Assembly (NCBI GenBank): GCA_002839825.1
Contig: PGYU01000026.1
Span: forward strand, 1 to 36,505
Origin: Ignavibacteriae bacterium HGW-Ignavibacteriae-1
GTDB lineage: Bacteria > Bacteroidota > Ignavibacteria > Kapaibacteriales > UBA2268
Direction of reading: 5' to 3'
DNA length: 36,505 nt
Shown here: positions 227 through 32,184 of the stretch, piece after piece
Position numbering within the stretch: the stretch's first letter is position 1
Layout of the letters: each line of letters opens with the position of its first letter
The notes under the pieces: model-generated
Told to the model about the DNA's origin: nothing
Database searches by the model: none
Seen by the model: only the letters and a program-made list of their open reading frames with translations
Made by a program: the position numbers and the translations under genes

Positions 227-2230
227 ATGAAAAATTTTGTACTATGTTTAATGCTTATCATAATCTCTACTACAGTCGCCGAGTCGCAACTCGTAAATCG
301 TTGGGAAGCTGTTGACACATCATCAAGAAATTACACTGATTATATGCGAACAAAAATAATGGATGCACTTGATAAAGACAAGCTGATTTCCATTGATAGC
401 GAAGTTTCTAATACCGGATGGTTTGTCAAATATTCGGCTGATGGTGGTACTACATTTGAAACCATTTTGCAAACGGAATCATTTCAGTACGAGTTAAACT
501 CATTGTCATTTCCGGCGGAGGAGCATTTTTATATTGCTGGCGATACTTCTGAATATCTGACCTCAGTAAGCTACAATTCGTATTTTAAAAGAACTGCAAT
601 TCTCTTTACCAGCTTCGATAGCGGAGAAAATTGGAATTATATCAAGTTTGATTCAAATTCAATAATCAAATATATTGATATGGCTTCAGCAAAATTAGGC
701 GTAGCCGCAATAATGACAGTTGGGAACTACTATAACTCAACTGTTGAATACAATGGTGATACGCTTCTATGGACCGATGATGGATTTCAGACAATTCAAA
801 AAATCCCGCTTCCTATCGAAAAGCTCACTGTTTACGCAATAAAAGTTTTTGATGAAGATAATTTTGTAATTCTTGTGCAGAAAAGTTCCGAATCAATCAG
901 AAAGTATATCAAAACCACCGACAGAGGTGAAACATGGGTTGATTTTGCAGAGGCGCCAAATACAAGAATTATCGAATTCATTGACCAAAATATCGCTTAC
1001 AAGATTGATGACAAACGAAAAGAATCGAATCCTGACCAGTGGGAAACCTTAGTTTCAAAAACTACAGACGGTGGCAATAGCTGGATTGAACTATTTACTC
1101 CAACCAATCCAAAATGGACCGATTACAGAGTTGTAACCATATCATGTGCCGACGAAGATAATGTACTAATCGCAGGAATCAACAGTATGATTTATAAAAC
1201 TACTGATGGTGGTATAAGTTGGCTGCAGCAAAATTTACCAAATGGAGGTAATGGCGGCGTAGATATGGAATATGATGCAGTACGTGAAATCATATATCCT
1301 GAAAAAGATGCTGCTTATGCTATTGTAGGTAGGATTATGTTCAAAATGACCGATGAAATGAATTTACAACGACCATATTTGAATTATTTTGGATATAGCG
1401 TTTCTCCTATTGATATAATCGTAAATTGGACTTCAGTCGAAGGAGCTAAAAGTTATCGCTATCAGTTAGCAAAAGCAACATCGAATAATGTCTATAGCTA
1501 TGACGTATTTAATAATCCTGTCTTAGATACCATTGTTGACAATCTCGAAATCATTCTGCCCGAACTTGATTATGACCAATGTTACTATGCTCGCGTAAAA
1601 GCAATAGGCGATGGAATCGAAAGTGACTGGTTTATTCGGGCTAGTCATTTCTGTACTTTTGATGATGAGAATTATGTATTAGCACCCATTTTCATTAAAC
1701 CTCTATCGGGCGAAAGAATAAAAACAAGCGAAATTGAATTTGTATGGACATCCGTACCAAATGCAGAAATGTATGAGCTTCAGATTAATAATATGCCCTA
1801 TTTCCAATCAACTATATTAGCTGATGAAACTACTGCCGATACAAGCATTATTATACCTACTCCTTCATACGAAAATGTAAACTTCTACGCACGCGTTAGA
1901 GTAAATGACGGAAATATTATTTCCGATTGGAGTTATCTGACTTTCAAGTTGGCTGACCCTACAAGCGTAGAATTAAACATAGTTGAAGATGGAATCAGCA
2001 TTTTCCCCAACCCGGCGATGGATTACATCACAATTACGAAACCTTCCGAAGGTTTCGAACCTTCGGAAGGTTCAGAAATTAGAATCTATAATACTCTTGG
2101 CGAATGCGTGATAAACCTCCCTTCGACAGGCTCAGGGAGCGATAATTCAAGAATTGATATTTCCCATCTGCCTCGTGGAGTGTATTACGTTCGTATAGGC
2201 ATCCGCACACAGATGTTTGTGAAGATGTAA
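227..2230 (+). CDS. T9SS-secreted Asp-box (BNR-like) and fibronectin-III-like surface protein
   Basis: Probably an exported surface or secreted protein of unknown substrate. An in-frame ATG at 158 exists, but the ATG at 227 is preferred because a standard signal peptide (MKNFVLCLMLIIISTTVAES) begins there. Residues about 60-400 carry five Asp-box-like motifs (SADGGTTF, SFDSGENW, TTDRGETW, TTDGGNSW, TTDGGISW), as in sialidase or Ycf48-like propellers. Two FN3-like modules follow, with the strand-and-WT pattern IIVNWTSVEGAKSYRYQL and IEFVWTSVPNAEMYELQI. The last ~75 residues form a T9SS type A sorting domain (IFPNPAMDYITI, LPRGVYYVRI, basic FVKM end). Two loops of this domain contain palindromic DNA inserts at 2040-2072 and 2117-2139. 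It is first in a block of three T9SS cargo genes, 26 bases before the next ATG. The propeller and sorting-domain calls are firm; the biological role is unknown. Confidence 0.85.
   Translation: MKNFVLCLMLIIISTTVAESQLVNRWEAVDTSSRNYTDYMRTKIMDALDKDKLISIDSEVSNTGWFVKYSADGGTTFETILQTESFQYELNSLSFPAEEHFYIAGDTSEYLTSVSYNSYFKRTAILFTSFDSGENWNYIKFDSNSIIKYIDMASAKLGVAAIMTVGNYYNSTVEYNGDTLLWTDDGFQTIQKIPLPIEKLTVYAIKVFDEDNFVILVQKSSESIRKYIKTTDRGETWVDFAEAPNTRIIEFIDQNIAYKIDDKRKESNPDQWETLVSKTTDGGNSWIELFTPTNPKWTDYRVVTISCADEDNVLIAGINSMIYKTTDGGISWLQQNLPNGGNGGVDMEYDAVREIIYPEKDAAYAIVGRIMFKMTDEMNLQRPYLNYFGYSVSPIDIIVNWTSVEGAKSYRYQLAKATSNNVYSYDVFNNPVLDTIVDNLEIILPELDYDQCYYARVKAIGDGIESDWFIRASHFCTFDDENYVLAPIFIKPLSGERIKTSEIEFVWTSVPNAEMYELQINNMPYFQSTILADETTADTSIIIPTPSYENVNFYARVRVNDGNIISDWSYLTFKLADPTSVELNIVEDGISIFPNPAMDYITITKPSEGFEPSEGSEIRIYNTLGECVINLPSTGSGSDNSRIDISHLPRGVYYVRIGIRTQMFVKM
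2040..2072. repeat. In-frame 33-base palindrome, type 1
   Basis: Two 15-base perfect inverted arms (AACCTTCCGAAGGTT and AACCTTCGGAAGGTT) flank a TCG centre. Each arm is itself nearly palindromic. It is translated as PSEGFEPSEGS in the loop between the first two strands of the sorting domain. None of the three forward frames contains a stop, and because the element is palindromic the reverse frames are also open. The same element sits at the same protein position in the next gene (3788-3820), and a half copy is intergenic at 6503-6517. Confidence 0.9.
2117..2139. repeat. In-frame imperfect inverted repeat, type 3 (CTCCC...GGGAG)
   Basis: The sequence CTCCCTTCGACAGGCTCAGG continues to GGGAG and forms an imperfect hairpin. 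It is read in frame as PSTGSGSD. It occupies the second sorting-domain loop, where the next two genes instead carry the type 4 palindrome. The CTTCGACAGGCTCAGG core resembles a motif that I recall recurring in many bacterial genomes; this was not searched. Confidence 0.7.
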
Positions 2231-2256
2231 TTTAAAAATATATATTGGAGTTAATT

Positions 2257-3987
2257 ATGAAAATCTTGGTTCTTATTTCTTTTTTATTTCTTGTAACAAA
2301 TCAGATATTTTGCCAAAAAATTGTAAAAGTCGATGGTTATGCTTTGCTGAATGATGAAACTGTTCATTCAGGTATTGAATTAAAGTTCGTGATGATTGCC
2401 CCGGATTCTTATAAAGATTCAACCCAAACCTCACCAACTGGATATTACAGTTTGAATTTATTTGAGGGTATTTATAATATTTCTATAACAAAAGAAGGTT
2501 TTGATACTCCATTATTAGAAGATGTTAAAATTTTTGATACTCTTACTCTTGATACTAAAATCCTTTATAAGATAGATTTGACTGGCTCATTGTCAGGCAA
2601 TATTGCTACGGGATTACATATTTTACAAGACTCTTGTTTTGTACTTAAAGGGGACACATTAATATTAGAACCCGGAGTTAAGTTGAAATTTAAATCACAA
2701 GGCAAACTTATGATTTTTGGAACACTAATAGCAGAAGGAACTTTGTCGGATTCTATAATATTTGATGAATACGATACAAACATCGGATGGAAGGGACTAC
2801 ATTTTATTGGTGCTAGCGAAACAATTTCCAGCCTTGAATATTGTAGGGTTTCTAAGTCAAAATATTCGGCAATTCGTTTTGATAATTCCAAAGCCAACAT
2901 TTCCAATTGTTTGATTTCAGATAATTTAACAAATGGAAGTTCAACTGTGCCCGGGATAGAGTCATATAATTCGACCTTAGTAATAAGTAAAACCTTTTTT
3001 AAAAATAATATTGACCTATCCTTACTTCAAGGAGCTGCAATAAGAATTGAGGGTGGCAAAGTATCAATAATTAGTTCAAGATTTGAGAAGAATTCTTGTA
3101 ATCAATGGGGTTCAGCAATTTCTATTCGTGAAAATAGTACTGTGAATGTATATAATTCAGAATTTTTAAATAATATATCTAAATATAATGGAGCTTCAAT
3201 CCATATTGACCCAAATAATGTAATTGCTAATATTATTAATTGTTCTTTTTATCATAATATTGTTACAAAACCAACATTTAAATACAATATAAATAGTATT
3301 ACAATATTTGGGAATGCAAACATTTATAACTGCCTTTTTTTCGAGTCTAATTTCCCAATAATTTATAAATCGGAAAAAGCTAAATTAGATATAAAGAATT
3401 GTTGTTTTTCTTATGGTTCAAAAAGTGTTTTTTATGGATGTAATGAATGGTTGGGAGAAATCGTAAAGAAAAATTCAAATAATATTGATTGTGATGTTTA
3501 TAACAATATATACACAAATCCCCGAATTTTGGATGCTGCAAAAGGTGATGTACGTCTTTCTCAAAACAGTGATTGCATAGATGCCGGAGACAATCAATAT
3601 TCTATCTACGATAAAGATATTGCCGATAATGCTCGTATCTATTCACCCAATCAAGACTCTACAGGTATAATCGATATCGGTGCTTACGAGTTTCAGGGAG
3701 TTTTTGTTACCAATGTAGAATCTGAAATTCTACAAAATAAGTTGAATATTTTCCCCAACCCGGCAATGGATTACATCACAATTACGAAACCTTCCGAAGG
3801 TTTCGAACCTTCGGAAGGTTCGGAGGTTAAAATCTTCAATACCCTTGGCGAATGTGTGATTGAATTAGCAGATGTCCAACATCTTGGAGATGTTGGACAT
3901 CTACAACGCATTTATATTTCGCATCTGCCTCGTGGAGTGTATTACGTTCGTATAGGCATCCGCACACAGATGTTTGTGAAGATGTGA
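2257..3987 (+). CDS. T9SS-secreted right-handed parallel beta-helix protein
   Basis: Probably an exported surface-bound protein. The start is the ATG at 2257, giving signal peptide MKILVLISFLFLVTNQIFCQ. A TTGGAG ribosome-binding site lies 6 bases upstream, and its TTG is in frame but is unlikely to be the start. Residues about 25-105 look like a carboxypeptidase-regulatory-type beta-sandwich (TSPTGYYSLNLFEGIYNISI). Residues about 115-460 show the repeating N-x-x-F/I-x-x-N pattern of a pectate-lyase-like beta-helix (SNCLISDN, SSRFEKN, YNSEFLNN, INCSFYHN, YNCLFFES). They end in the DAGDNQYS...DIADNARI...DIGAYEFQ block typical of choice-of-anchor Q / DUF1565-like helices. A T9SS type A domain closes the protein. 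No obvious polysaccharide-lyase catalytic set is visible, so an enzymatic role is not claimed. Confidence 0.85.
   Translation: MKILVLISFLFLVTNQIFCQKIVKVDGYALLNDETVHSGIELKFVMIAPDSYKDSTQTSPTGYYSLNLFEGIYNISITKEGFDTPLLEDVKIFDTLTLDTKILYKIDLTGSLSGNIATGLHILQDSCFVLKGDTLILEPGVKLKFKSQGKLMIFGTLIAEGTLSDSIIFDEYDTNIGWKGLHFIGASETISSLEYCRVSKSKYSAIRFDNSKANISNCLISDNLTNGSSTVPGIESYNSTLVISKTFFKNNIDLSLLQGAAIRIEGGKVSIISSRFEKNSCNQWGSAISIRENSTVNVYNSEFLNNISKYNGASIHIDPNNVIANIINCSFYHNIVTKPTFKYNINSITIFGNANIYNCLFFESNFPIIYKSEKAKLDIKNCCFSYGSKSVFYGCNEWLGEIVKKNSNNIDCDVYNNIYTNPRILDAAKGDVRLSQNSDCIDAGDNQYSIYDKDIADNARIYSPNQDSTGIIDIGAYEFQGVFVTNVESEILQNKLNIFPNPAMDYITITKPSEGFEPSEGSEVKIFNTLGECVIELADVQHLGDVGHLQRIYISHLPRGVYYVRIGIRTQMFVKM
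3788..3820. repeat. In-frame 33-base palindrome, type 1 (second copy)
   Basis: Identical in sequence to 2040-2072 and located at the homologous codons of the sorting domain. It is embedded in a 77-base segment (3748-3824) that differs from 2000-2076 at only two bases. Confidence 0.9.
3871..3901. repeat. In-frame 31-base palindrome, type 4
   Basis: Perfect 13-base arms (GATGTCCAACATC and GATGTTGGACATC) surround TTGGA. It is read as DVQHLGDVGHL in the second sorting-domain loop. All three forward frames are free of stops. An identical copy is at 5980-6010 in the next gene; the first gene has a different element at this loop. Confidence 0.9.
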
Positions 3988-4008
3988 GGAAATAAAGGAG
4001 AAAAAATC

Positions 4009-6096
4009 ATGCGCTATGTAGTTTACATCGTTTTACTATTTTTTTCAGTTAGTCTGAATTCTCAAACTGTTTGGGTGCAGACAAATGGTCCGTATTCCGG
4101 TCATTTATCCTATATAACCAAAAATGGACAAGGGCATCTGTTTGCAATTTCGGAAAATTACTATTTGTTTCGTTCAAAAGATAGTGGTGCTAATTGGGCA
4201 AAAATTGCTTCAAAGATTTCTTCCATTGCTTTCGACTCGGATAATAACTACTATTTGGGAACTACTTCAGGAGAGATCTCATTGTTTGATACCAATATGA
4301 CTTTAATTCAAACAATAAGGAATGAGGAGCATGAGATAAGAAATGTGGAAAGTATTGATATTGATGCTAATGGGAATATTTATGCAAAAGTTTTTATGGG
4401 AGGATTGAACCTTTCAACAGACAAAGGCATAAGCTGGGAAACGATATATACTAGTGGTTTTTCTCAACTTAGTTTTGATTCTAATAACGTTATAATTATG
4501 AGTTTTTATAGCAATGGTATTGCCCGTTCAACAAATAACGGCAAAGGTTGGACGGAAATTGTAATTAACGATGCATCATATCGGCGCGGTATATATTTTA
4601 CTGCTTATAATAAAGTATTCGACAATTTTGTAGCTGTAGGCATGGGAAATATTGTTTATATTTCTAATGACCTTGGCTTAACTTGGCTCCTGGTGGAAGA
4701 CTCAATCCCAATCAATTATGTTGAAGCAGTTTTGATTGATGAAAATGGCGATGCATATATTGGTGGCGATAGTTTAGTTTGCCGCTCGACTGATGGTGGA
4801 TATACATGGACAAAACTCGATGGATTCCCAAAAGTACGGGGTCAATCGCTAGTAAAACAAGGTGATATGATCTTTACTGCCACTTGGAGCAATGGCATAA
4901 TTGCTTATGATATTTCTACAAATTCTGGAGAAAAAAGGAATAATGGAATAATCAATTCAAATGTGTATCAGATTGCTATAAATCAAAAAGCTAATGTTTT
5001 TGCAGCAACTTCAAGCGGAATTTATCGAACGACAAATTCCGGGAACTATTGGGAACAATTAGAATTGCCAATCAGTTCCGATGTTGAGAGCACTACAATT
5101 TTAGCCTCAAAATCCGGTAACTTGTTTGCATCAAGCGAACATGGTGTGCTTATATCAAAAGATGATGGGCAATCGTGGAGTATTGTTGACAATCTGGAGT
5201 CGTATCCTGAAATAACTACTTGTTTTGCAGAATCGGATGACGGTAGAATTTATGCCGGCAACTACTCTTTGCATTATTCAGATGACAATGGCGAAACTTG
5301 GCAATCAATAGATGTTGATGATGTAGTTTATAAAATTTCCTCAATTGCAACTTATCACAACAAATATATACTGGTGGGATCTGATTATGACGGTGTGTAT
5401 TTTTCTGAAGACAACAGCAATTCATTTAAAAAATTACCGATAAATGTCCCTGAAGATACTCAAAATTATGTCAATTTTAACTCTGAAGGCAATATGTTTA
5501 TAAGTATGAATGCTTGGCAGGGTGGCGATGCAGTTTTCAGGTCTATGGATTTAGGCAACACATTCACAACTTTGGATTCACCAAATGGTGGTGTGCGATT
5601 TTTGAAAATTGATAATAATAATATCCTATATTATTCAGATTATAAAAATCAGCTATATCATTCGAAAAACAATGGCGACGATTGGCTACCTTTGAATGAT
5701 AAATCAAAAGGTCCCGTTTATATTAGAGATATGGTTTTCGGGAATAGCAATAATGCTTATATTGGAACATGGTATGATGGTGTTTACAAAACTGATTTTC
5801 TGGCAATTGTAAATTCCGAACCGCTTCAAAATTCAGTTGATTTTGGAATTTTCCCCAATCCGACAAGCGAATATATTGAAATAGCCGTAAATATCAACCC
5901 TACGGTTAACCGTAGGGTTGATGAAATTGCTGAAATGAAAGTCTTCAATACCCTTGGCGAATGCGTGATTGAATTAGCAGATGTCCAACATCTTGGAGAT
6001 GTTGGACATCTACAACGCATTGATATTTCGCATCTCCCACGTGGTGTGTATTACTTGCGTATAGGCAATCGGACACAGATGTTTGTGAAGATGTGA
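4009..6096 (+). CDS. T9SS-secreted Asp-box beta-propeller protein
   Basis: Probably an exported propeller protein. The ATG at 4009 follows an AAAGGAG ribosome-binding site and begins a signal peptide (MRYVVYIVLLFFSVSLNSQ). At least eleven Asp-box-like motifs run through residues about 45-600, for example SKDSGANW, STDGGYTW, TTNSGNYW, SKDDGQSW, SDDNGETW, SKNNGDDW. This suggests one or two seven-bladed propellers of the Ycf48/sialidase-like type. Such repeats alone do not show sialidase activity, and no catalytic Arg triad or FRIP motif was recognised. The C-terminus is a T9SS type A domain (IFPNPTSEYIEI, LPRGVYYLRI, FVKM). It carries two in-frame palindromes at 5893-5922 and 5980-6010. It is the third member of the cargo block, 21 bases after the previous stop. 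Confidence 0.85.
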   Translation: MRYVVYIVLLFFSVSLNSQTVWVQTNGPYSGHLSYITKNGQGHLFAISENYYLFRSKDSGANWAKIASKISSIAFDSDNNYYLGTTSGEISLFDTNMTLIQTIRNEEHEIRNVESIDIDANGNIYAKVFMGGLNLSTDKGISWETIYTSGFSQLSFDSNNVIIMSFYSNGIARSTNNGKGWTEIVINDASYRRGIYFTAYNKVFDNFVAVGMGNIVYISNDLGLTWLLVEDSIPINYVEAVLIDENGDAYIGGDSLVCRSTDGGYTWTKLDGFPKVRGQSLVKQGDMIFTATWSNGIIAYDISTNSGEKRNNGIINSNVYQIAINQKANVFAATSSGIYRTTNSGNYWEQLELPISSDVESTTILASKSGNLFASSEHGVLISKDDGQSWSIVDNLESYPEITTCFAESDDGRIYAGNYSLHYSDDNGETWQSIDVDDVVYKISSIATYHNKYILVGSDYDGVYFSEDNSNSFKKLPINVPEDTQNYVNFNSEGNMFISMNAWQGGDAVFRSMDLGNTFTTLDSPNGGVRFLKIDNNNILYYSDYKNQLYHSKNNGDDWLPLNDKSKGPVYIRDMVFGNSNNAYIGTWYDGVYKTDFLAIVNSEPLQNSVDFGIFPNPTSEYIEIAVNINPTVNRRVDEIAEMKVFNTLGECVIELADVQHLGDVGHLQRIDISHLPRGVYYLRIGNRTQMFVKM
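5893..5922. repeat. In-frame 30-base perfect palindrome, type 2
   Basis: ATCAACCCTACGGTT is followed directly by its exact reverse complement. It is translated as roughly INPTVNRRVD. It sits at the first sorting-domain loop, where genes 1 and 2 carry the type 1 palindrome. Unlike types 1 and 4 it has a TAA in one alternative frame, so it tolerates insertion in only some frames. Confidence 0.9.
5980..6010. repeat. In-frame 31-base palindrome, type 4 (second copy)
   Basis: Identical to 3871-3901, at the homologous codons of the sorting domain. Confidence 0.9.
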
Positions 6097-6174
6097 TTGT
6101 CTGAACTATGATTTTTTTGATTTGAATGATTTTTATGATTGAATTTTGTTCCGTATTTGTCCTAAAATTCGTTT

Positions 6175-6210
6175 ACAACACACCCCCTAACCCCCTCTTG
6201 ATAGAGGGGG
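6175..6210. repeat. 36-base dispersed repeat with CCCCCTCT/AGAGGGGG hairpin, copy 1
   Basis: The stretch beginning ACAACACACCCCCTAA is identical over 36 bases to 25674-25709. Its right half folds as an 8-bp stem (CCCCCTCT, loop TGAT, AGAGGGGG). The two copies lie in the two intergenic repeat clusters of the window. Confidence 0.85.
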
Positions 6211-6236
6211 AATAAGACAGAATTTTCTTTTTGTTC

Positions 6237-6257
6237 CGTCAGGTGTTACACCTGACG
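6237..6257. repeat. 21-base palindrome CGTCAGGTGT-T-ACACCTGACG
   Basis: Perfect 10-base arms around one T. A truncated copy (CGTCAGGTGTTACATCG) occurs near 25361-25377, in the other repeat cluster. Confidence 0.8.
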
Positions 6258-6269
6258 AGACAAATACTT

Positions 6270-6297
6270 GTAGGGACACGGCGTGCCGTGTCCCTAC
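6270..6297. repeat. 28-base palindrome GTAGGGACACGGC-GT-GCCGTGTCCCTAC
   Basis: Perfect 13-base arms around GT. This is the strongest single hairpin in the interval. It shares the GGGACA/TGTCCCT outer bases with the next hairpin at 6308-6328. Confidence 0.85.
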
Positions 6298-6307
6298 TAA
6301 AACAAAA

Positions 6308-6328
6308 GGACAGAACGCTATTCTGTCC
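6308..6328. repeat. Hairpin GGACAGAA...TTCTGTCC
   Basis: 8-base perfect arms enclose a CGCTA loop, followed by CTAC, as in the previous hairpin. Confidence 0.75.
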
Positions 6329-6363
6329 CTACAAAATTTCATTAATTTTCTTTCTCACTCTCT

Positions 6364-6391
6364 TTCGGAGAGGGTCGGGGTGAGGTTTCTT
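6364..6391. repeat. Repeat TTCGGAGAGGGTCGGGGTGA..., copy 1
   Basis: 28 bases identical to 25585-25612. In the second copy the preceding bases complete a CTCTCC-TTCG-GAGAGG hairpin; here the left arm is eroded to CTCT. Confidence 0.85.
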
Positions 6392-6691
6392 CGGTTTTGT
6401 CCTAAAATATGTTTACACCCTTTGGCATAATCACCAAAATCATAGTTAGGACTGCTGGTCATACTGAAGCCGAAGGCGAAGAATCAAGTTTTCTGGATTC
6501 GTAACCTTCCGAAGGTTTCGAATGTATGCCTTTCGACTTTAATTCCCCTCTTGAGGGGTGGATGCGCCAGCAGACGGGGTGGATGTCTTGTCATTTCCCA
6601 CGAATAAATTTATGAACTATTTTTTTCCTCCCGGAGAATTTGAGAGCTTCTTCATCATCTTAATCACAAAAATCATAGTTCAGACAACCTA

Positions 6692-23900: not shown

Positions 23901-24200
23901 TTGAAAATCCCGTAAGGGAATAAATGTAAATAACCCCGTATGAAATGCGGGGAAAGAAATCGCGACATATTCAACAATCCCGTAAGGGATTAAATGTAAA
24001 TAACCCCGTATGAAATGCGGGGAAAGAAGCATATGAACATTTTCAAACCACGAAGTGGTTAAAAATGAATAACCCCGTATGAAATGCGGGGAAAGAAGCA
24101 TATAAACATTTTCAAACCACGAAGTGGTTAAATATGAATAACCCCGTATGAAATGCGGGGAAAGAAGCATATGCAACCTATTTACAAGCCTGATGGGCTT
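23901..24200. repeat. Tandem array of paired hairpins with covarying stems
   Basis: Four units at a 69-70 base period share a 28-base block starting TAACCCCGTATGAAATGCGG (23931, 24001, 24070, 24139). This block folds as CCCCGTA/TGCGGGG, including a GT pair. Each unit is preceded by a second, variable hairpin: AATCCC-GTAA-GGGA(A/T) in units 1 and 2, and AACCAC-GAA-GTGGTT in units 3 and 4. After unit 4 a lone variable-type hairpin, AAGCCT-GAT-GGGCTT, stands at 24186-24200. The stem bases differ between units but stay paired. The linker between units (CATAT-ACATTTTCAA) is also conserved, so this is not a CRISPR array. It lies between gltX and a DUF2279 gene. Confidence 0.85.
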
Positions 24201-25221: not shown

Positions 25222-25419
25222 TTTGAATGTTTAAATTAATTTTCAAACAAAAATCCTTAACTTACGGATTCTCAATTCAGATACAACAAAATTAATCAAT
25301 ATTGATTGATAATCCAAATAATTATGAATATGTCAATCAAAATACAAAGCTCCCCGTCCCGTCAGGTGTTACATCGTTTATGCCGTTTCTATGCGACCTC
25401 TTCGAGGTCGAATGTGTAG

Positions 25420-25521
25420 CATTAACAATTTTGCTATAAACATGTGACTCCTTCGGAGTCAAGAGGGATTCATTAACATTTTTGCTATAAACATGTGACT
25501 CCTTCGGAGTCAAGAGGGATT
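25420..25521. repeat. Two tandem 51-base repeats containing GACTCC-TTC-GGAGTC hairpins
   Basis: Each unit runs CATTAACA(A/T)TTTTGCTATAA, ACATGT, then the hairpin GACTCCTTCGGAGTC, then AAGAGGGATT. The hairpins lie at 25446-25460 and 25497-25511. A related stem with a different sequence (CGACCTC/GAGGTCG) precedes them at 25394-25410, so the loop (TTC) is kept while the stem changes. Confidence 0.85.
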
Positions 25522-25584
25522 AGTTTATGCTATCTTCACAATCCCACGAATAAAACCGTGGGTTATATTTCTTTCTCCCTCTCC

Positions 25585-25612
25585 TTCGGAGAGGGTCGGG
25601 GTGAGGTTTCTT
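25585..25612. repeat. Repeat TTCGGAGAGGGTCGGGGTGA..., copy 2
   Basis: 28 bases identical to 6364-6391. Here the left arm is intact, giving a CTCTCC-TTCG-GAGAGG hairpin (with CC and GG extensions) just before the GTCGGGGTGAGG tail. Confidence 0.85.
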
Positions 25613-25673
25613 AGTTTTCCCACGGTTAAAATCGAGGGTATATTATGTTAACATATTTCAGGACAAAAAAAAT

Positions 25674-25709
25674 ACAACACACCCCCTAACCCCCTCTTGA
25701 TAGAGGGGG
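25674..25709. repeat. 36-base dispersed repeat with CCCCCTCT hairpin, copy 2
   Basis: Identical to 6175-6210. It ends 21 bases before the stop codon of the DUF4249 gene on the other strand. It could serve as that gene's transcription end, though this is inference. Confidence 0.85.
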
Positions 25710-25730
25710 GACGGGTTTTGAGGTGTTTTC

Positions 25731-26618
25731 TTACGGTTGGTTCTTGTACAAGAAGACTTCTTTTTCGATTACCGAAGCGGAACCGAACACTCCGTAACCG
25801 CCTTTGATGCTGTTTAAGAGTGGGTCGGTGGAGGTTGATTGTGTGAAATACAAATTCTTGAACCAATTGAGCATGTTCGGGTCGGGATTGAACATTGCAA
25901 GAGTTTGCAGCCCAAACCACTTGAATGCAAACCATACTGCCGCAGTTTCTGTGTTGCCGATTAATCCCCAATTTGTTACATTTTTATATGTGAAATCGAA
26001 GTCCTTGTTTTTGCTCAAAAAGTTGTAGCAACGGCGATTCGGTTCGTCTGTAGCGGGAGTTAAGTATTTTCCGTAATTTAATGTATCTAAGTGCATTGTG
26101 CGAACCAAGAAATAATTGACGCTATCAACTTTAGTCCACGAAATCTTGAGCGAATCCACAGCTTCCAATGCCAAAGTGTCCTGCGGGTAATAAAATGGTG
26201 TTTTGGGTTCGTCAATCCATGCAAATGTTTTGGGCGTTTTGGTGGATGATGTTATTATTTTTCCGTCGGGAGTCGTAATTTTTAACTCATATAAAGTCTC
26301 TGCTTTGACTGTATCGTCCAATTCGGGATAAAAGTAGCCCGGAGTTTCGCCATCTTGATATTCGAGCATAATAGTTTTGCCGTCGTAGGTTAGTTGCACC
26401 ACAGCATCTTTAATCAATCCGCTCTCCGGATTATATTTGTCGGCAATTGATTGAGTATTTCTGAGAATTATTCCTCGAATCGGTTCGCCAACAATCAAAT
26501 ATCCTTCGACATATTTATCTTGAATATAATCATTCGGTGCAGGGTCTTCGCATGACGCAATAATTGATATTAATCCAACAAATATTGCAATTTTAAAATA
26601 ATTATTTAAATTTTTCAT
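25731..26618 (-). CDS. DUF4249 family lipoprotein, partner of the TonB receptor
   Basis: A Bacteroidota outer-membrane lipoprotein family normally encoded beside TonB-dependent receptors and thought to help ligand capture. The lipoprotein signal is MKNLNNYFKIAIFVGLISIIASCED (lipobox IASC). The N-terminal beta-sandwich (VEGYLIVGEPIRGIILRNTQ, IKDAVVQLTYDGKTIML, LYELKITTPDGKIITSSTKTP) is diagnostic of DUF4249. The C-terminal part (AAVWFAFKWFGLQTLAMFNPD) is also family-like. At 295 residues it has the usual length. A clear AGGAG ribosome-binding site precedes the ATG. It follows the receptor by 15 bases, so the two form one operon. Confidence 0.85.
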   Translation of the reverse strand: MKNLNNYFKIAIFVGLISIIASCEDPAPNDYIQDKYVEGYLIVGEPIRGIILRNTQSIADKYNPESGLIKDAVVQLTYDGKTIMLEYQDGETPGYFYPELDDTVKAETLYELKITTPDGKIITSSTKTPKTFAWIDEPKTPFYYPQDTLALEAVDSLKISWTKVDSVNYFLVRTMHLDTLNYGKYLTPATDEPNRRCYNFLSKNKDFDFTYKNVTNWGLIGNTETAAVWFAFKWFGLQTLAMFNPDPNMLNWFKNLYFTQSTSTDPLLNSIKGGYGVFGSASVIEKEVFLYKNQP

Positions 26619-31346: not shown

Positions 31347-31470
31347 AAACTTTTACTCGTCTAATACGTATTTAACATAATTGTGTAAACTTGTTATATT
31401 GATTTTTATTGACACACTTTGGAACTATTTTTTGTATTTTCGTAAAAATTTGTGGTGTTATGAAGTATTA

Positions 31471-32184
31471 ATGAGACTAATTGTATTAATAGTTTTAACG
31501 ATTTTTGTTTCGAGCACAGTGTTGCATTCGGAACAGGTAGCCTATACATTAAAGGACAATAGCCTCAAAGTATCAATTACAGACCTCTACACAAACTGTT
31601 GTTCTGCATATATTGGCGATTATTCAATTAATCAAACAGAAAATACCATAAGGATTGTAGTCACAGATACTTCAAACCAGCTTTGCAGATGTATGTGCAA
31701 CATTGACTTGGAATACACCGCTACAAGTATCCAAAAGGGCAAATATAAAGTATTCGTCTATCTTGACGAACTCAAAAAGTTCGGCTATCCGAAGGACATT
31801 AGGCGATTGATATCCAGACACGACATCGAATTCGCTAAAGAATGTTTGGAAGAGGAATTGCAAGGTAAGCTCACTCAAAGCGTTTGCAAAACCACAAATA
31901 GCGTCATCAGCCGTAGCGAAATGAAATCTGAAATAGAAGTATTCCCCAATCCGTCTAATTCAATGGTGACAATACGCTTTTATTTGAAAGAGCGTAACGA
32001 TGTTGAAATAAAAATACTAAACTTCTTGGGGAAAGATTTGATGACAATGGAATATACAGGATTGCCCGAAGGAGTCAACACAGTTTCATTTAGTGCCGGA
32101 GATTTGCCCTCGGGAATGTATCTCGGCAAATTGATGACAAAAAGTGGAAATGTCAGTTCATTTAAAGTTGTTTGGTCGAAATAA
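31471..32184 (+). CDS. Cysteine-rich secreted protein with T9SS type A sorting domain
   Basis: Exported cargo of unknown role. An earlier ATG at 31381 is in frame, but the ATG at 31471 begins a proper signal peptide (MRLIVLIVLTIFVSSTVLHS). The mature N-domain carries a striking Cys group, TNCCSAY and then QLCRCMCNIDLEY (five Cys within ~45 residues), plus one Cys near FAKECLEE and one in SVCKTT. This could be a disulfide or metal-binding site (inference). The C-terminal ~80 residues are a T9SS domain (VFPNPSNSMVTIRF, IKILNFLGKDL, LPSGMYLGKL, SFKVVWSK). It has none of the palindromic inserts seen in the 227-6096 genes and so shows the uninserted loop lengths. The next small gene starts three bases after its stop. 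Confidence 0.78.
   Translation: MRLIVLIVLTIFVSSTVLHSEQVAYTLKDNSLKVSITDLYTNCCSAYIGDYSINQTENTIRIVVTDTSNQLCRCMCNIDLEYTATSIQKGKYKVFVYLDELKKFGYPKDIRRLISRHDIEFAKECLEEELQGKLTQSVCKTTNSVISRSEMKSEIEVFPNPSNSMVTIRFYLKERNDVEIKILNFLGKDLMTMEYTGLPEGVNTVSFSAGDLPSGMYLGKLMTKSGNVSSFKVVWSK

Follow-up and report, generated by a model that had tools for sequence, protein, structure and literature searches.

Three adjacent genes in a 36,505-nucleotide stretch of DNA (the window: contig C42, PGYU01000026.1, of the 3.23 Mb draft genome of Ignavibacteriae bacterium HGW-Ignavibacteriae-1, from a little-studied bacterial group, hereafter the window genome) raise the question of how different palindromic DNA elements come to occupy the same two places of one protein domain. 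All three genes encode predicted cargo proteins of the type IX secretion system (T9SS), each with a T9SS type A C-terminal sorting domain (CTD), and in each domain two loops, termed A and B, carry short palindromes in differing combinations. A first-pass annotation, made from the sequence alone, had read these as mobile palindromes swapped at two loops of a secretion signal that offers them a safe harbor. We hypothesize, with a probability of roughly 0.7, that palindromic repeats were inserted in two CTD loops, were kept there, and are exchanged among paralogues by recombination. The genes and their elements, in positions of the window, are as follows:

227–2230, forward strand: gene 1, a VPS10/BNR-like T9SS cargo (PF15902) with a C-terminal sorting domain; open reading frame 158–2230, domain profile match 2000–2218 (PF18962, 48.8 bits)
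2040–2072, forward strand: palindrome of family A (type 1) in loop A of gene 1 (s2-s3), encoding KPSEGFEPSEG
2117–2139, forward strand: weak palindrome of family I (type 3) in loop B of gene 1 (s4-s5), encoding part of LPSTGSGS; family assigned by motif
2257–3987, forward strand: gene 2, a T9SS cargo whose sorting domain is a mosaic drawn from the domains of genes 1 and 3; domain profile match 3748–3975
3788–3820, forward strand: palindrome of family A (type 1) in loop A of gene 2, from the sequence and the strict palindrome scan
3870–3902, forward strand: palindrome of family C (type 4) in loop B of gene 2, encoding DVQHLGDVGHL
4009–6096, forward strand: gene 3, a T9SS cargo with a VPS10/BNR propeller and a sorting domain; domain profile match 5848–6087
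5893–5922, forward strand: palindrome of family B (type 2) in loop A of gene 3, ATCAACCCTACGGTTAACCGTAGGGTTGAT, encoding INPTVNRRVD; coil in the structural model
5979–6011, forward strand: palindrome of family C (type 4) in loop B of gene 3, from the strict scan; between model strands 51–55 and 67–71

The ATG starts of genes 1 (227) and 2 (2257) are our choice; the sorting domains of genes 1, 2 and 3 score 48.8, 38.3 and 37.5 bits with the curated T9SS type A profile, whose cut-off is 27. The family A element has the sequence AACCTTCCGAAGGTT-TCG-AACCTTCGGAAGGTT and the family C element AGATGTCCAACATCT-TGG-AGATGTTGGACATCT; both had been described as free of stop codons, and read by eye they are so in the three forward frames. 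Sequence and scan alike recovered the palindromes that the annotation had placed at the two loops of the three genes, with the qualification that type 3 (CTCCCTTCGACAGGCTCAGGGAG, family I motif CTTCGACAGGCTCAGG) is only a weak palindrome: its arms measure just 6 bases and it is not reported at 2117–2139 by the strict scan, and its motif is found again at the same loop in other sorting domains. The reading frames of genes 1–3 stay open across the palindromes; in this sense the elements lie in frame, and they would be translated.

The arrangement extends well beyond these genes. In the window genome, of which 37% was read, at least 165 sorting domains are present and 165 were examined; a strict palindrome was defined by arms of at least 11 bases with at most one mismatch. 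Such a palindrome is present in 31 of the 165 domains and absent from 134. Among the 51 in-frame palindromes of sorting-domain genes, 49 stand at two loop positions, 28 at loop A (34–48 nucleotides after the start of the domain) and 21 at loop B (114–132 nucleotides after it); the two exceptions are C28:46027, which belongs to a CTD fragment and falls in its loop A region, and C14:66099, about 960 nucleotides away from a domain. Each loop hosts at least four different palindrome families. Loop A has A (10), B (15), F (1), J and, at C35, a palindrome that is unique; loop B has C (8), D (8, with one variant besides), E (4) and the weak family I, which falls below the strict threshold. Families A and F have a 9-base core in common. 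Within 536 kb enriched for T9SS genes the scan returned 109 strict palindromes, whereas a single block-shuffled copy gave 4, and 58 of the 109 lie outside the open frames of sorting-domain genes.

The usual forms are an inverted pair of 15-mers with 3 bases between them, or palindromes of 28–30 bases with a GTAG foot. Family lengths of 24, 30 and 33 bases are multiples of three, the 28-base GTAG palindromes bring two further bases, and the frames used are open; each family is always found in a single frame in the window genome, though more than one frame is open for families A to D. Copies that are decayed or half deleted and still open are common (TSEVLETSAV, INRRVD, VETQHAESL), single-sided variants of family B recur, and the loops of the 165 domains vary in length.

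The position of the elements in the folded domain was predicted with AlphaFold2, the input being the CTD of gene 3 and 23 other CTDs of the window genome. In the gene 3 model (predicted local distance difference test, pLDDT, 79.2; predicted template modeling score, pTM, 0.69), element B (residues 28–37) forms low-confidence coil between strands 21–27 and 42–45, and element C (57–67) lies between strands 51–55 and 67–71, touching the first residue of the latter; both positions are thus predicted loops between strands. Structurally the model comes nearest to the NucA CTD of 8glk, a T9SS complex (template modeling scores 0.58/0.71, E 0.0014), and no match reached 0.001. The model and the census agree with the annotation's expectation that the palindromes prefer loops to strand positions. 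According to the accessible part of PMC4804311, loops A and B correspond to the s2-s3 and s4-s5 loops in the strand description of the RgpB CTD, and in P. gingivalis the CTD is cleaved off after secretion; if cleavage proceeds likewise here, loop insertions would leave the mature cargo untouched.

The same loops are occupied in relatives, which include genomes G001 and G002, of the same genus as the window genome, and G011 and G015, of other genera. In the loci read from these four, the loops hold A, B, C, D, E or new palindromes, such as AGACTTCCGAAGTCT-TGA-AGACTTCGGAAGTCT; none of these palindromes stands at the loops of the 10 loci read from genome G005, and at one locus (L184) loop A is short and plain and loop B has a palindrome. 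In named genomes, the CTDs that match most closely come from metagenome-assembled genomes (MAGs) of Ignavibacteria/Kapabacteria. GTDB species genomes were scanned as well, and the 80 best CTD loci were inspected for palindromes with arms of at least 10 bases; a palindrome is present in the domain in 25 of 64 loci of Kapabacteria/Ignavibacteria-type MAGs (8 of 12 MAG groups) and in 0 of 16 Bacteroidota loci, counts that favor palindrome-bearing loci since the query held palindrome peptides. By eye, 17 of these palindromes fall at loop A, 16 at loop B and none elsewhere (the classifier gave 19, 12 and 2; L341, L343 and the two "other" cases were moved to B). Palindromes with a GTAG foot stand at loop A in three of the loci (L300, L319, L350), but at loop B in the window genome.

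Four side observations belong here. Half-sized in-frame elements (INRRVD, QPTEG, QTSEV, ASEGLG) occur at C40:553330 of the window genome, in two loci of G002 (L377 and L378) and in L175 of G015, whose loop A holds half an A element, and they suggest a route by which a palindrome could be partly lost without loss of the frame. Open reading frames of 80–117 amino acids with little beyond a sorting domain and palindromes (C8:86525 of G001, L142; C38:46911 and C43:68693 of the window genome) may be pseudogenes or silent recombination donors. The GTAG-footed loop palindromes of the window genome, G001, G002, G015, L300, L319 and L350 are read as GTA-G although another frame is open. Finally, the MAG CROMO_A_116, filed as Desulfobulbaceae, has sequences in common with G001 and hence looks mislabeled.

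In other genes the palindromes are nearly absent from the sample read. Two unselected contigs of the window genome, C40 and C33 (760 kb, 657 open reading frames from a simple greedy caller), contain 45 strict palindromes, 30 of them intergenic, 3 at the edges of reading frames and 12 inside; nine of these 12 lie in CTDs that total about 7.1 kb, and the other three, in doubtful frames of 60, 89 and 105 amino acids, were set aside, leaving none in a credible non-CTD gene in the 760 kb. No p value is attached to this contrast, because the copies are related by descent. Nor does any of 24 non-CTD copies read one by one (8 of A, 11 of E, 5 of D, one of these from G001; an A copy of L254 was left out) lie in a credible gene; 5 of the 11 E copies have 3 mismatches, and one E copy (L268) lies inside a 139-amino-acid stretch from stop to stop. 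An A copy at L255 was rejected as an intragenic case, as the open stretch concerned precedes the methionine taken as the start of the following gene, presumably a ComM/YifB-like gene. With up to 3 mismatches, family A has 30 copies in the window genome (10 in sorting domains, 1 in a fragment, 19 elsewhere), family E has 18, and family C has 9 identical copies, 8 in sorting domains and the ninth at C7:3938; family D has 16 copies with up to one mismatch. Families A, D and E are present outside genes too. This near absence from other genes lends support to the idea of sorting domains as a safe harbor. As a separate observation, a further group of 33-base palindromes (AGATGTGCCACACCT..., AGATGGACTCCACC...) follows the stop codon of certain genes with sorting domains at a distance of 4–11 bases (L149, L150 and L157 of G001/G002; C2:15372 and C35:3229 of the window genome), and its AGATGGACTCCAC form is the unique loop A palindrome of C35:3229.

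Whether the elements stay with their genes can be judged from orthologues, taken as reciprocal best cargo pairs with at least 70% amino acid identity over at least 200 amino acids, a loop being called similar when at least half of its residues are equal. The genomes compared are drafts in tens or more of contigs, and the segmentation left 5 of 93 domains unparsed in the loop comparison and 17 of 93 in the third-position comparison, the pairs concerned being excluded. Between the window genome and G002, loop A is similar in 7 of 14 pairs, loop B in 10 and both in 4; between the window genome and G001 the corresponding counts are 1, 4 and 0 of 9 (one of the nine is element-free, two more pairs were unparsed, and two of the four similar B loops are exactly at the threshold and different by eye); and between G001 and G002 they are 0, 3 and 0 of 7, with one more pair unparsed. 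The two closest pairs have cargos that are 96% identical. In one (C12:124451 and L149, 98.1% cargo nucleotide identity), loop A holds A in one genome and B in the other, with the same E at loop B; in the second (C12:6265 and L151, 99.1%), both have A at loop A, and loop B holds E in one and a decayed D in the other. Gene 1 carries A and I in the window genome and B and I in G002, and gene 3 carries B and C in the window genome and B and I in G002, where the two genes are still adjacent and in the same order; gene 2 is reduced there to a CTD tail of about 38 nucleotides (matching gene 2 from 3950 on) behind a pair of AGACTTC[GC]GAAGTCT 15-mers. Conservation of the loop residues as ordinary protein, which the annotation had named as the outcome that would speak against insertion, is not what the relatives display: their loops often hold other palindromes, decayed ones or unrelated sequence.

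The sequence around the elements points to exchange between paralogous domains. In the two closest pairs, third-position identity is 0.97–0.98 in the cargo, against 0.73 and 0.75 in the CTD outside the loops, and among the alignments listed the flanking codons differ together with the element. Element-free domains served as controls: of 30 G002 loci given, 17 have a reciprocal best partner of at least 70% in the window genome, and in these 17 pairs CTD nucleotide identity is 0.907 against 0.898 for the cargo, the CTD being lower than the cargo in 7 of 17 (p 0.22). The cargo-minus-CTD difference at third positions is 0.082 in 12 element pairs and -0.018 in the controls (Mann-Whitney p 0.039), a comparison that is conservative in that control CTDs include the loops and element-pair CTDs exclude them. 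Gene 2 itself is a mosaic, its CTD being nearly identical to that of gene 1 through the end of element A, near gene 3 across element C, and from there to the stop codon near gene 1 once more. Outside the elements 36 sites are informative; 21 of them side with gene 1 and 15 with gene 3, and most fall into three blocks (permutation p 0.0002). In the window genome, a motif caller that also accepts decayed copies finds A and B each combined with C, D, E and I, eight combinations in all. Mosaic structure, changing flanks and free combination of loops are what gene conversion between paralogues predicts. Family D shows a related split: 7 CTD copies of the window genome are exactly GTAGAGACACGGCATGCCGTGTCTCTAC, copies outside CTDs are mostly GTAGGGACACGGCGCGCCGTGTCCCTAC or close to it, and four G001 CTD copies that were read have the center ATTCATGAAT or are one base off, as expected if copies circulate among CTDs. 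The annotation's view of swapped mobile palindromes can accordingly be kept as regards different elements at the same loops, but the swap among the three genes is best explained by a few founding insertions and by recombination that now goes on among paralogous sorting domains, without need of a new insertion for each swap; to call the elements mobile would rest on the number of families, loops and genera.

Where the repeats came from is suggested by a known class of elements. Accessible parts of PMC3733652, PMC3116915 and PMC2817692 describe repetitive extragenic palindromic (REP) sequences, their assemblies into bacterial interspersed mosaic elements (BIMEs) and REP doublets forming hairpins (REPINs), and REP-associated tyrosine transposases (RAYT, TnpA-REP), GTAG-tagged palindromes included. 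The window genome has one Y1_Tnp (RAYT-like) gene, flanked by six copies of AGACTTC[CG]GAAGTCT, and families A and F have the core CTTC[CG]GAAG in common with these repeats. In G011 the RAYT 15-mer AGACTTCCGAAGTCT stands as an inverted pair in loop A of a domain (L173), the exact pair being seen in a sorting domain only in that genome, and one A copy lies 253 bases behind a RAYT-like gene (L413). Fifteen RAYT loci of this bacterial family were looked at and 11 genes counted (L286 and L412 are the same; L271, L278 and L279 were excluded for wrong gene bounds): similar palindromes stand on both sides of five (L031, L282, L276, L285, L280), on one side only of L413, L286, L272 and L273, and on neither side of L284 and L277. 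The palindromes on both sides vary by genome (AGACTTCCGAAGTCT, CCCACGGTTNNAACCGTGGG, AACGGGCTTCAGCCCGTT, CCCACGAATAAATTCGTGGG and CTTGGGG...CCCCAAG). An explanation of the presence of family A by that of RAYT genes proved weak: among the matches listed, a Y1_Tnp match occurs in 8 of the 10 genomes that have A and in 15 of the 30 that lack it. A REP-type origin is likely for families A, F and D, the last with its GTAG foot.

Taken together, the proposed course of events is that short palindromes of REP/BIME type, presumably transposed by a RAYT-type enzyme, would have inserted repeatedly into the s2-s3 and s4-s5 surface loops of T9SS type A domains, where they would be read in frame as 8–11 amino acids; that they would persist there, and almost nowhere else in genes, as the signal is cut off the cargo and a longer loop may cost little; and that they would spread and swap among some 30 similar domains of one genome by homologous recombination (gene conversion), loop by loop, with the outcome that orthologous cargos soon bear different palindromes. 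Several results weigh against this course. The RAYT match of the window genome is weak (27.1 bits against a cut-off of 23), families B, C, D, E and J stand beside none of the RAYT genes read, and G001 is without a Y1_Tnp match though palindromes are present. Orthologues with different elements are found, as the annotation had hoped, but no clean empty site at the exact boundaries and no target-site duplication. The CTD drop within element pairs is borderline (lower in 8 of 12, Wilcoxon p 0.077), and CTD third positions agree more often in orthologues (identity 0.64, 26 pairs) than in paralogues of the window genome (0.54), from which homogenization would be only partial.

Among other explanations, the palindromes may spread without any transposase, loop hairpins being broken in replication and repaired from another sorting domain in the manner of homing elements; we regard this as unlikely, but were it true, the whole set of signals would be kept in rapid exchange by a selfish, or later useful, recombination system seated on a removable domain. 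Somewhat less probable still is direct turnover, in which each palindrome is independently inserted or lost at a preferred target by a transposase and recombination is minor. Different families at each loop within and between genera, the five RAYT genes flanked on both sides, the inverted pair in the G011 loop, and one GTAG variant (C23:66228) that is near the intergenic pool where its G002 orthologue has the usual CTD variant are as such turnover would have them; the single frame of each family despite other open frames, flanking codons that change with the element, CTD copies of family D mostly unlike the intergenic ones, and the mosaic of gene 2 are not.

That the palindromes are kept for a function, as an mRNA hairpin or for programmed diversification of the secretion signal, we hold to be improbable. 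Symmetry is perfect in most copies found, though by a scan that selects for symmetry, and the alternative centers of family D vary yet remain palindromic (CGGCATGCCG, ATTCATGAAT, CAGCGCGCTG); the frequency of decayed and half-deleted open copies, however, argues against a required hairpin, single-sided B variants recur, most domains are without a strict palindrome, and the variable part is presumably removed with the domain. It is more improbable again that short-read assemblers joined wrong partners at near-identical domains or that hidden paralogy misleads us, even though the genomes are drafts and different genes can share nearly identical CTD stretches of about 90 bases: among the alignments listed, single-loop swaps are followed by further private differences and no switch to another locus, in G002 gene order is kept for genes 1 and 3 and the remnant of gene 2 lies between them, element-free domains show no comparable drop, and the same two loops are involved in independent assemblies. 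Ordinary variable loops with palindromes by chance or codon bias, to which the variation of loop length would point, are refuted by the excess over the shuffled copy and by the intergenic copies of A, D and E.

The window holds further features of this kind:

2–34, unstranded: family E variant with 3 mismatches at the window start, outside the listed open reading frames
6270–6297, unstranded: intergenic GTAG...CTAC palindrome, a family D variant, downstream of gene 3, from the strict scan
31939–32157, forward strand: sorting domain without palindromes (comparison domain), within the open reading frame 31381–32184

The last of these had been cited as the uninserted domain, rightly as regards its lack of palindromes, but at 31471, which is not its position. 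Four tandem copies of a 69–70-base unit built from two palindromes (AATCCCGTAAGGGATT or AACCACGAAGTGGTT, plus CCCCGTATGAAATGCGGGG) lie in intergenic sequence at 23905–24181, and two clusters of more palindromic repeats (6174–6397 and 25391–25760) have in common a 37-base identical stretch (6174–6210 and 25673–25709) and a 56-base stretch that is 89% identical.

These observations make the sorting domain a seemingly rare safe place for repetitive DNA inside genes, and a natural test case for how palindromes spread. Dozens of natural variants indicate which loops in T9SS signals can accommodate foreign peptides, which is useful for secretion engineering, and loop residues of these domains should not be taken as conserved function. 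Since elements differ at 98–99% cargo DNA identity, the exchange is recent enough to be followed in isolates or metagenomes.

Compared with known systems, the domains belong to the T9SS type A sorting domains (PF18962, TIGR04183; RgpB CTD), with family matches above the cut-off and a predicted fold nearest the NucA CTD, and differ from the typical form in that two loops are enlarged by DNA palindromes. Concerted evolution by gene conversion is known in gene families, and mosaic domains and orthologues with different segments are in keeping with it; the difference here is that exchange affects a short signal domain, which sits on different cargos and bears palindromes as marks. The literature searched, whose coverage leaves out most subscription papers, reports intragenic REPs and Rickettsia palindromic elements in general and none tied to T9SS domains; in-frame intragenic palindromes are already known, and it is their concentration in two loops of one removable signal that was not found there. 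Rickettsia palindromic elements, with which the annotation had compared these, are described in the accessible parts of PMC2229807 and PMC10969869 as about 105–150 bp long, in frame in many unrelated Rickettsia genes, and proposed to be tolerated. The present elements likewise lie in frame within protein genes, with frames open through them, but measure 24–33 bases, keep to one domain family and appear to be exchanged between paralogues, and size and breadth of host genes rule out membership. Intragenic REPs are known from several classes of protein, and many of these proteins serve DNA synthesis and repair (PMC3733652, accessible part). Unlike those, the intragenic copies described here are concentrated in two loops of one domain family and copy numbers are low (9 to 30), and families A, B, C, E and F are without the GTAG or CGTC foot of tagged REPs. 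As in REP/RAYT systems, however, palindromes of 20–40 bases are dispersed in the genome singly or as inverted pairs, the non-CTD copies read lie outside credible genes, family D has a GTAG foot, and the Y1_Tnp gene of the window genome is flanked by inverted palindromes. The elements stand nearer to the REP/BIME repeats associated with RAYT than to those of Rickettsia.

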